IMG/VR virus record: IMGVR_UViG_3300025585_000161
Coordinates: 1-24,759 of that record
Reading direction: 5' to 3' (one strand)
Length of the DNA: 24,759 bases
From: a virus
The notes below the pieces were generated by a model. That model was given only the letters and a program-made list of their open reading frames with translations. It was not told the DNA's origin and searched no databases. This document shows, one piece after another, positions 13,344-16,484 of this stretch. Numbering within the stretch: the first letter of the stretch is position 1; the number at the start of each line of letters is the position of its first letter. A program made the translations under genes and the position numbers.

Positions 13344-13433
13344 GACCTACTCAAGACGCTGAGCAAAAATACTCAACGTCGCGAGCGTAACCGACCGGGC
13401 GAGGCCGCCGCAGAGCCAAAGCCCTAGGACGGC
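13344..13433 (-). other. gap before the packaging genes with a 10-bp hairpin
   Basis: This 90-base gap holds an inverted repeat at 13355-13380: on the transcript GACGUUGAGU pairs with GCUCAGCGUC (two G-U pairs) around an A/U loop. ACTCAA also occurs twice in direct orientation (13349-13354 and 13371-13376). There is no U-run after the hairpin, so it is not a simple terminator. The place just before the VRR-NUC and terminase genes makes a packaging-site or translational-control role conceivable. Confidence 0.35.
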
Positions 13434-13832
13434 CTATAATCGATTCCTGCCCTCGGTTGGTGTGGTCGGACGTCTCGGCCCCGCCGAAGCCCCCATAAGG
13501 CTCCCTGAAGCCCCTGAAGCCCGTTTGCGCAGCCGCTCGACGATGTCGGCCACCTGTTCCGGCCGGAGGCGGCTCCGTTCCTCGACGGGCGGCAGGGTCG
13601 CGAGCGGGTCAACGTCGAGCGCGGCTTCCCGCCGCACGGCGGTGACCGCCGCAAAGAGCGCCGCGGTCGGATTCGTCACGGCGGCCTCGAGGCGCAAGAC
13701 GCGGTCAACGGCCTTGGCCAGTTCGCCGCCGTCGATGTCGCGGAGCGGCGCGGCGTGCACCGCGAGCGTCGAGGGGTCGAGGTCGAGCCGGAAGGCTCGG
13801 CAAACGAGTGCAACGGCTTGGACGGCGTCCAT
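13434..13832 (-). CDS. possible helicase loader (G39P-like), replication gene
   Basis: A 132-residue helical protein directly after the replication initiator, overlapping it as TGATG (ATG 13830-13832). Its order of helices (AVALVCRAFRLDLDPSTLAV, AAPLRDIDGGELAKAVDRVL, then NPTAALFAAVTAVRREA) resembles the N-terminal domain of SPP1 G39P-type helicase loaders, in which LxDID..ELxxAVxxL is followed by a PT-containing helix. The C-terminal third is Arg/Pro-rich and probably disordered. No helicase gene lies in the window, so a host or off-window helicase would be the partner. Confidence 0.5.
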   Translation of the reverse strand: MDAVQAVALVCRAFRLDLDPSTLAVHAAPLRDIDGGELAKAVDRVLRLEAAVTNPTAALFAAVTAVRREAALDVDPLATLPPVEERSRLRPEQVADIVERLRKRASGASGSLMGASAGPRRPTTPTEGRNRL

Positions 13833-14653
13833 CAGACGGTCTTTCTGCCCACAAGTCGGGCAACGGGGTTTCCGGCCTCGGCAGCCAAAAGCGTTCGCGC
13901 GGCGTCGAGCGTGTCGGCGCCTTTGACGGTCGCCGCGGAGTGCTGGCCGCGTTGGCCCGAGTCGTACGCGCCGATCTCGACCCGTTCGAAGTTCTCGGGC
14001 CGGAGCACCCAGCCGAGGGAAGCCGTGAAGCGTTTCGAGCCGTTGAGGGCCGGGGAGCGGTTGACCGTTTCGAACACCTTGCCCCAGTCGAGGTCGGCGC
14101 GATCCACCCGGGCCACGGCCTTGACGAGGTTGGCCGTGACGGCCGGGGCGGGCGGCATGCCGGGGGCCGCGGCCGAGTTCCAAAGCGCCGCCACCTCGCG
14201 CGCGCGCGCACCCGCGTTCACGCTCACGCTAGTGAGCGTATCTCTATCTCCCTCTCCTTCTCCTTCTCCGGCCCTAAGCGGGGGGTTTAGGGGCGCCCTA
14301 AGCGGGGGGTTTAGGGCGGCCCTACGGGCCTCGTTAGGTAGCGCCAAGCGGGTCACACGTTCAATGGATTTCCCGCGCAAAACGTCACATTTCGGATTTA
14401 CCAAGCGCCCGTCATCGGTCGTTTTGAACATCCCTTGAAGCGCTTTGAGGGAGCGCCTCAACGTCTTTTCAGAGATCCCTGAAAGGCGGCTCAAAATTTT
14501 TGGATCGGCGTTGATCGAGCCTTCACGCCATTGAAACCACAGCAGCACGATGAACACGTAACGCACCTCGATGTCGAGCGCGGCCACCCGTTCGTCGTTG
14601 AAAAACGCATCGCCGTAAAACGGCATCCATTCCTGAATCTTGTGCTTCGACAT
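13832..14653 (-). CDS. replication initiator-like protein (lambda O-type organisation)
   Basis: A 273-residue protein. Residues 1-100 resemble the winged-helix start of phage initiators and DUF1376 proteins (EWMPFYGDAFFNDERVAALD, WREGSINADPKILSRLSGIS). Residues 112-135 are low complexity, with tandem ALNPPLRA/PLNPPLRA octapeptides and a GEGEGEG run. The C-terminal part (LDWGKVFETVNRSPALNGSK, FTASLGWVLRPENFERV) fits the conserved end of phage replication proteins that contact the helicase loader. ATG at 14651-14653 follows AAGGGGAG. The DNA coding the low-complexity part looks like an origin. Family name is moderately sure. Confidence 0.7.
   Translation of the reverse strand: MSKHKIQEWMPFYGDAFFNDERVAALDIEVRYVFIVLLWFQWREGSINADPKILSRLSGISEKTLRRSLKALQGMFKTTDDGRLVNPKCDVLRGKSIERVTRLALPNEARRAALNPPLRAPLNPPLRAGEGEGEGDRDTLTSVSVNAGARAREVAALWNSAAAPGMPPAPAVTANLVKAVARVDRADLDWGKVFETVNRSPALNGSKRFTASLGWVLRPENFERVEIGAYDSGQRGQHSAATVKGADTLDAARTLLAAEAGNPVARLVGRKTV
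14220..14340 (-). other. candidate replication origin inside the initiator gene
   Basis: Two identical 21-bp units (14272-14292 and 14296-14316) repeat with a 24-bp period. Each has arms CCCTAA and TTAGGG around nine bases. A decayed third unit starts in phase at 14320. Reading along the minus strand there follows an almost pure purine tract (14241-14270, with GGAGAAGGAGAAGG), then an 8-bp inverted repeat ACGCTCAC/GTGAGCGT with a 4-base loop (14220-14239). Iterons plus an unwinding tract within an initiator gene is the lambda ori layout; function here is inferred. Confidence 0.5.
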
Positions 14654-14672
14654 GCTTCTCCCCTTCGGTCGG

Positions 14673-14684
14673 TAGCCTAGGCTA
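14673..14684. promoter_or_regulatory. 12-bp palindrome and weak promoter candidate before the initiator gene
   Basis: TAGCCTAGGCTA is a perfect palindrome across the TAG stop of the exonuclease gene. On the minus strand TTGTCG (14697-14702) and TAGGCT (14674-14679) are spaced 17 bases, so it could be part of a promoter or operator for the initiator gene. Neither hexamer is close to consensus. Its core TAGCCTAG also occurs in the operator-like site at 21986-22004. Confidence 0.3.
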
Positions 14685-15435
14685 TCAGCCATTCCGCGAC
14701 AATGTCACCGAGTTCGGCGTCGAGGTCGTCGTGCCGTTTCAGGTACTCGCGGCCGTAGCGGTCGAGCACGCCTTCCACGGTCTGGCCGATGCGTTCGCCG
14801 CGCGCCCAGAGCCGTTCGGGCTGTTCCTCGCCGACGACGTGCCGGAGCCACCATCGGCCGACAATGGCCGCGTACTTCTTGCGCATGGCCTGCGGGTAGG
14901 TCACCTGTCGAATCTCGGTGCGAAACTCGGGCACGAGCCCGCGCACCTCGTCGGGGTGGTCGGCTTCGAAGATCGCGCCGACGAGCAGCCAGCGCGGCCA
15001 GTCGGTCACGGCCTGCTGGTGGAGGGTTTGTAGGCGGTACTCGAGCGGGCACGCGCCGCCTTCCCAACGCGCCTTCGATTTCTTCGACCAAACCGTTTTC
15101 ACCTCGATGCCGTGCGTCCCCCAACGCCCGTCGGGCGTCGCCGCGAGCCACGGGAACGCCTTGCCGCGCATCGTGGCCAAGTTCGTCTCAAGCGCGCCAA
15201 GCGGCTTCGGTTGGTCGTCGCTCGGTTGCAGCGCCTCGGCAAAGCGTTCCAAAATGAGCGGTTCGTAGCGGTTCCCGGCCACGGTGTACTCGTTGCCTTC
15301 GTCGTCGGCTCCGAGCGCGCCCAATTTTTCGAGGAACACGGCCCGAGGGTGCACGTGCGCGGAAATGCCAAGCACCGCCGCGGCCTCGGAAGCGCACACG
15401 GCGGTCTTGCGGTCAAAGTTCGGGTCGAACGTCAT
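14677..15435 (-). CDS. YqaJ-like viral recombinase / lambda-exonuclease-family nuclease
   Basis: A 252-residue 5'-3' exonuclease candidate that would resect double-stranded ends to feed single-strand annealing. Motifs in order: ASEAAAVLG (15-23), GNRYEP (54-59, E58), AATPDG (98-103, D102), EVK (111-113) and QTLHQQ (136-141). These are the conserved E/D/ExK/Q positions of the YqaJ family. It starts at ATG 15433-15435 in an ATGA overlap. The Sak4-like ATPase and SSB-like protein at 20248-21657 would complete a recombination set, though they are 5 kb away. Confidence 0.9.
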   Translation of the reverse strand: MTFDPNFDRKTAVCASEAAAVLGISAHVHPRAVFLEKLGALGADDEGNEYTVAGNRYEPLILERFAEALQPSDDQPKPLGALETNLATMRGKAFPWLAATPDGRWGTHGIEVKTVWSKKSKARWEGGACPLEYRLQTLHQQAVTDWPRWLLVGAIFEADHPDEVRGLVPEFRTEIRQVTYPQAMRKKYAAIVGRWWLRHVVGEEQPERLWARGERIGQTVEGVLDRYGREYLKRHDDLDAELGDIVAEWLIA

Positions 15436-16484
15436 GGTTTGTAGTGCTCCTTCAGCACGGGGAAAGATTCGTACAGGCGCGCCGCGTAGCGCGTCCAAGT
15501 GTTCCGTTCGTGCATGCGTTGCACGTACAAGAGTTTCGGGACGTGCACGATGCGGCCGACCTTGTAGAGCCGCACCATGAGGTCGTAGTCGTCGGCCCAA
15601 ACGAGGTCGCGGTAGCCGCCTGCGAGGTCGTAGCCGCGCCGCGTGAACGCGCGCACGTGGTTTGGGCATACTGGCATATGCTCGATCACGCGCCCGGCCG
15701 AGCACGTGCCATTGACGTCGGGCGCGCTGGCAACGTCGATGGCCCGGCCGCGCCACACCTCGGTGCGGTAGTGCCAGTCCGGCGATTTGTAGCGGTTGCA
15801 CGTGCCCGTCTCGGGGTAGTACTCCGAGAAGTCGGAGTAGGCCATCACGGCTTCCGGGTGCGCGCGAAACGTGCCCAGCAGGCTCGTGACGGCGTCTTCG
15901 GTGAGCCAATCGTCGTGGTCGAGTTCCACCAGATAGTCGCCGCGCGCGAACGCGCACGCCGCGCGCTTCAGGAAGCCGATGCGGTTAACGGGATTCATCG
16001 GAAACACGCGCACGCGCGGGTCTCGGTAGTTGTGCAGTTTGAACACGGTGCCATCGGTTGAGCCGTCGTCCACCACCACCCATTCCCAATTCGACCACGT
16101 TTGCGCGCGCACGGTTTCGTACGTCTCGTCGATGAATCGCGCCGCGTTGTGCGTGGCCGTGAAGATCGAGACGAGCGGCAACGAGTTGTCCGTGTCGCGC
16201 AGTTGCCTGAGGTGGTTGGCCTGCGATAGGTCATCGATCTCGGCCGCGGTCGGCATGGCCTCGCGATGCACCCAGTAGCGTCGAAGCCAATACGGCATGC
16301 CGTTCATGCAAGACCGATCCCACGAGGCTCCGACGGTCACGATGACGGAGTAGGTGCGGCCGCAGAGGAAGCCGCGCGCCTCATGCTCGTGGCAAACGTC
16401 CACGCGGTGCGTCTGCGCGTCGCTGTAGTCGGGCTTTTCGGCCAAGGCGGCCTCGGCTTGGCAGATGACCAGCGCGCTATGCAT
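15432..16484 (-). CDS. GT2-family glycosyltransferase
   Basis: A 350-residue protein with a GT-A fold domain from about residue 103. It shows LVSIFTATHN (104-113), VVVDDGSTDGT (136-146, nucleotide-sugar binding), a metal-binding DxD-like LDHDD (188-192) and a later WADDYDLMVRLYKVG that supplies the catalytic-base region. The first ~100 residues are a separate part with CHEHEARGFLC and several Trp/Arg, and match no family I know. No membrane segment is seen, so it should act in the cytoplasm. The start follows CGGAG. It overlaps the Lar-like gene by eight bases and the exonuclease as ATGA. The acceptor (DNA base, protein or surface glycan) is unknown. Confidence 0.9.
   Translation of the reverse strand: MHSALVICQAEAALAEKPDYSDAQTHRVDVCHEHEARGFLCGRTYSVIVTVGASWDRSCMNGMPYWLRRYWVHREAMPTAAEIDDLSQANHLRQLRDTDNSLPLVSIFTATHNAARFIDETYETVRAQTWSNWEWVVVDDGSTDGTVFKLHNYRDPRVRVFPMNPVNRIGFLKRAACAFARGDYLVELDHDDWLTEDAVTSLLGTFRAHPEAVMAYSDFSEYYPETGTCNRYKSPDWHYRTEVWRGRAIDVASAPDVNGTCSAGRVIEHMPVCPNHVRAFTRRGYDLAGGYRDLVWADDYDLMVRLYKVGRIVHVPKLLYVQRMHERNTWTRYAARLYESFPVLKEHYKP

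Follow-up and report, generated by a model that had tools for sequence, protein, structure and literature searches.

Does a short array of repeats in the middle of a phage gene serve only the protein that it encodes, or does the same DNA also mark the place where replication begins? This question was raised by the minus-strand gene at 13832-14653 of the window, by which we mean the whole 24,759-nt viral contig that was analysed. The initial annotation had pointed to repeat units inside this gene and compared their arrangement with lambda ori in gene O. Our results support this comparison: the region is probably a lambda-like intragenic replication origin, lying in the gene of its own DUF1376-type initiator, and the reading draws on iteron arms that are kept while their number varies, on constraint at the DNA level and on the gene contexts of DUF1376 members. 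The lambda-type layout is a known kind of origin, and its recurrence across DUF1376 genes is the newer and more interesting part. The origin reading is limited in that the collections hold only two close relatives and the window protein lies below the DUF1376 cut-off. These relatives are two phages in IMG/VR with a close relative of the gene, L002 (82% protein identity) and L003 (73%), and both align with the window along the neighbouring genes.

The gene likely encodes an initiator of 273 aa, for which profile matches and an AF2 model predict a winged-helix-like N-terminal domain, a disordered linker and a helical C-terminal domain. Its start codon is the ATG at 14653-14651, which is preceded by a ribosome-site-like stretch (GGGGAG), and an in-frame ATG further upstream, at 14692, is absent from L003. 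The match to DUF1376 (PF07120) had an E-value of 1e-4 and 23.1 bits, below the curated cut-off of 30.1, while the orthologs scored 25.3 bits in L002 (below) and 31.9 bits in L003 (above); by these profile scores the window protein would be a borderline member of the DUF1376 (YdaU) family. The C-terminal part gave weak PHROG matches to DnaD-like families (helicase loaders) and O-like families (initiators), the O-like match being that of the L003 ortholog. A search for lambda O homology across the protein gave no match in the annotated phage collection at E 0.01. In the AF2 model (mean pLDDT 60) the N-terminal domain is mainly helical, residues 106-143 form a low-confidence linker and the C-terminal domain is helical; the same layout, with a low-complexity linker, was seen when other DUF1376 members were compared. 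Foldseek matches were weak (E above 0.2), and the best of them were mostly winged-helix DNA-binding proteins, including the N-terminal domain of DnaD. The winged-helix assignment, which we keep as a prediction, does not rest on this modest fold model alone.

Among the window genes that were scanned, none matched a helicase, loader or primase family, and no loader like lambda P was recognised next to the initiator gene. A small ORF at 13434-13832 (minus strand) starts in an ATGA-like overlap with the stop codon of the initiator gene and has equivalents in L002 and L003; it matched no PHROG or Pfam family, and it is a candidate for a helicase-recruiting partner. On the other side, a family 2 glycosyltransferase gene at 15432-16484 (minus strand) overlaps the start of the adjacent YqaJ-type exonuclease gene, within the replication and recombination region.

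The repeats consist of two 24-bp iteron units at 14295-14318 and 14271-14294 (minus strand), identified in the sequence and in the relatives. Each contains the inverted repeat CCCTAA-N9-TTAGGG, at 14296-14316 and 14272-14292, with perfect 6-bp arms and a 9-bp spacer. The two identical units with these arms and a 24-bp period, as described initially, were confirmed, and the exact identity extends over 22 bp (14271-14292 and 14295-14316). A decayed third unit lies at 14319-14342 (minus strand); it is decayed at the same position in L003 and is an intact unit in L002. It had been described as in phase, which holds for the arm CCCTAC at 14320-14325, while the arm TTAGG at 14334-14338 is one base off. 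With up to two mismatches allowed, CCCTAA-N9-TTAGGG occurs only at the two intact sites in the whole contig, and the pair forms the contig's only exact repeats of at least 16 bp within 100 bp. In 100 dinucleotide shuffles of the contig the mean number of matches was 0.16 and none of the shuffles gave two; shuffling the gene's synonymous codons 20,000 times never produced two perfect sites. These iterons are far beyond chance. The G-runs spanning both iterons (14280-14316, plus strand) could form a G-quadruplex; a simple pattern marks three stretches of this kind in the contig, this one included.

In the direction of the gene, the decayed unit is followed by the two intact units, a purine tract, an inverted repeat and an alternating CG stretch. 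The tract (14239-14269, minus strand) is hexanucleotide-like, of GGAGAA type, and it is strictly purine over the 23 nt at 14247-14269, as had been noted; no other uninterrupted run of purines or pyrimidines in the contig is longer than 12 nt. The earlier description of the tract as purine-rich rather than A/T-rich holds for its composition, yet the tract is still a locally weak spot. Since the 25-bp segment from 14239 belongs to the least stable 0.2% of such segments in the contig by nearest-neighbour energy, the tract is a plausible unwinding element as judged from its sequence. The 8-bp inverted repeat at 14220-14239 is perfect, has a 4-nt loop, folds into a hairpin on either strand and is identical in all three phages. 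It forms part of a 50-nt block (14190-14239, minus strand) which also includes the alternating CG stretch (14197-14209) and which is likewise identical in the three.

The comparison with the relatives bears directly on whether this DNA is constrained for its own sake. It had been expected that the repeat number would vary among related phages while the arms are kept, and this was seen in both relatives: L002 has three intact units, L003 has two and a decayed third, and the arms are kept in each. The three phages agree at 23 consecutive informative synonymous sites of the linker (permutation p=1e-4). The disfavoured codons CTA, CTT and AGG stand in the arms of each intact unit, a combination to which the codon usage of the phage gives a chance of about 2e-4 per unit. 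The codon rarity of the linker exceeds that of all 4,869 other 16-codon stretches scanned in the contig, and the unusual codon choice falls at the same linker place in all three phages. These results show a constraint at the DNA level beyond protein coding. The DNA that encodes the low-confidence linker of the AF2 model coincides with the iterons and the tract, and because this linker is disordered, the DNA there can be constrained without harm to the protein. Searches of viral contigs for the iterons returned nothing in the exact form and only L002 and L003 in the degenerate form; bacterial genomes scanned for a host with the initiator profile and the terminase gave none.

The same observations weigh on the explanation that the repeats amount to no more than a low-complexity linker in the protein, rich in proline and in glycine and glutamate, which was expanded by slippage and has no role at the DNA level. 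Many DUF1376 linkers are dipeptide repeats, slippage would copy codons, and the two units of the window could be one recent duplication. However, L002 has the same arm codons in its three units and different ones at their centres, the phages all retain the rare codons CTA, AGG, GGA and AGA, and the hairpin block that is identical in all three is not repetitive. We therefore regard this explanation as quite unlikely.

The origin reading also accommodates the way in which the gene has diverged. The window and L002 are 93% identical over 9 kb, whereas the segment at 14311-14573 (minus strand), comprising the winged-helix coding part and the distal iteron unit, diverged as a unit and is only 72% identical in the alignment. 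This segment contains 74 mismatches in 263 positions, and the remainder of the gene region has 42 in 609. Against L003, the stretch from the iterons to the hairpin is among the best conserved, and the neighbouring stretches are much poorer. These three sequences are most simply read as joint evolution, or joint exchange, of the DNA reader and its sites.

A reader with its sites could also be a transcription or autoregulatory factor with its operators, so that the protein would repress its own operon from within the gene. Paired inverted repeats fit a dimeric winged-helix regulator, and LexA and other repressors were among the Foldseek matches. But a promoter scan of 13400-15500 gave no promoter-like match, and operators would leave unexplained both the low-stability tract and hairpin in fixed order and the recurrence of the arrangement by helicase-loader and helicase genes. 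An operator function in place of an origin is accordingly given a low probability, and the two functions overlap, as an initiator can also autoregulate. That the constraint acts on RNA, with mRNA hairpins controlling translation or stability, is highly unlikely: the inverted repeats are able to pair in the transcript and the perfect 8-bp hairpin is conserved, but over the whole region, folded with DNA parameters, unusual stability was found for the strand opposite to the coding sense (z -2.33) and not for the coding-sense strand itself (z -0.92), the purine tract and the C-rich spacer are under constraint as well, and an Rfam scan gave no match.

For the preferred reading as a replication origin, we propose that the winged-helix N-terminal domain binds, probably in dimeric form, to the 24-bp inverted-repeat iterons. 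Such binding would open the adjacent, weakly paired purine tract beside the conserved inverted repeat, and the C-terminal domain would then recruit the replicative helicase, either directly or via a host loader. The initial annotation had suggested cumulative GC skew as a check, and the skew gave no support for an origin at this place: its extremes lie at 2851 (minimum) and 23146 (maximum), and near 14.25 kb the curve shows no more than a weak local inflection. We treat the skew as uninformative rather than refuting, because no end repeats were found in the 24,759-base record, the contig may be incomplete and its recognised genes lie on one strand.

DnaD-like replisome organizers of Gram-positive phages have origins, with repeats, in their genes. 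The window protein resembles them by the weak DnaD-like PHROG matches of its C-terminal part and has no strong sequence match to them. In lambda, with ori in gene O, and in the origins of the Stx phages P27 and 933W, the initiator gene carries inverted-repeat iterons at its middle, beside a tract that melts easily; among such relatives the iteron number is 4 or 6, and the protein is lengthened by additional iterons (PMC7466680). The window has the same arrangement: its initiator gene contains several iterons with inverted repeats, adjoined by a tract that should melt easily. In contrast to the 19-bp iterons of lambda, those of the window measure 24 bp and have a C-run as the spacer between their CCCTAA/TTAGGG arms. 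Unlike in the lambda and Stx origins, the melted tract is purine-rich and not AT-rich, a conserved hairpin follows it, and the protein is without an O-like family match beyond the weak C-terminal PHROG matches. Lambda has its P gene, whereas no loader was found beside the window initiator; a loader neighbour is present in the Rac prophage and in a Pseudomonas phage.

The Rac prophage of E. coli has an active origin, oriJ (PMC3945230), and its DUF1376 gene ydaU adjoins the DnaC-like ydaV. Like the window gene, ydaU has iteron-like repeats and a hexanucleotide tract at the linker position, with constrained synonymous sites: among YdaU relatives, synonymous identity was 0.88-0.92 over the tract, compared to 0.22-0.65 over the domain and the first part of the linker. 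Unlike in the window, the iteron sequence is another one, the tract is AT-rich and of GATACA type, and a loader gene lies next door.

This likeness extends to a survey of 62 diverse DUF1376 genes, in which the repeats were compared with synonymous shuffles by region. Direct repeats exceeded the shuffles in 33 of the 62 linkers; the corresponding counts were 8 for the N-terminal regions and 4 of 52 for the C-terminal ones. Inverted repeats showed a small excess only (13 linkers, against 9 N-terminal and 5 C-terminal regions). Slippage may account for part of the hexanucleotide signal in these linkers. The DUF1376 genes of other phages have different repeats at the linker place, and in several phages the gene adjoins a DnaC, DnaB or primase gene: the neighbour is DnaB in a Plectonema phage, DnaC in a Pseudomonas phage (where the gene follows cII) and a replicative helicase in an Acinetobacter phage. 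Judged from these gene orders, DUF1376 genes elsewhere can hold the position of lambda O by helicase-loader or helicase genes. Among 19 sampled contigs, with the downstream ORFs chosen mechanically, only 4 had a replication-family match downstream of the DUF1376 gene.

It is probable that DUF1376/YdaU genes are self-contained replicator modules, found in phages of many bacterial groups. Each module would combine a reader domain with iterons, a hexanucleotide tract for unwinding and, in many cases, a hairpin, and its C-terminal domain, which would recruit the helicase, would be swappable. This pattern appears to be undescribed in the literature searched; among papers that mention DUF1376, no title or abstract concerned origins. 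DUF1376 is a large and almost unstudied family of phage proteins, and the origin reading gives it a testable function: the general claim can be tested directly in E. coli K-12, and the replication start would become predictable from sequence alone in many phages and prophages. The window itself illustrates well how the same DNA can encode a disordered protein linker and be a probable replication origin.

Several further features were observed in the family. Just past the linker tract of ten genes (L107, L118, L135, L144, L161, L163, L173, L096, L097 and L100) lies a hairpin with the near-constant loop TCACT[TA]CGTTC, whose arms vary between phages yet remain complementary. Seven copies were counted in the 51 kb that the DUF1376 genes cover, against none in 166 kb of DNA on their flanks, and Rfam gave no match in the loci tried; it looks like a structured element of the candidate DUF1376 origins. 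The YdaU relatives L056, L060, L061 and L068 have the N-terminal domain, repeats and tract in common with ydaU (L012), while their C-terminal parts are unrelated and join just past the tract, which suggests domain exchange at the candidate origin. In ydaU and its relatives (L077-L092 and L012), the copy number of the GATACA-type tract differs between phages, giving TDTD repeats of varying length. The ydaU allele L052 has one extra 12-bp unit, CCCCCCCTAAAT, compared with Rac, and this unit resembles the window iterons in their C-run and CCCTAA parts.
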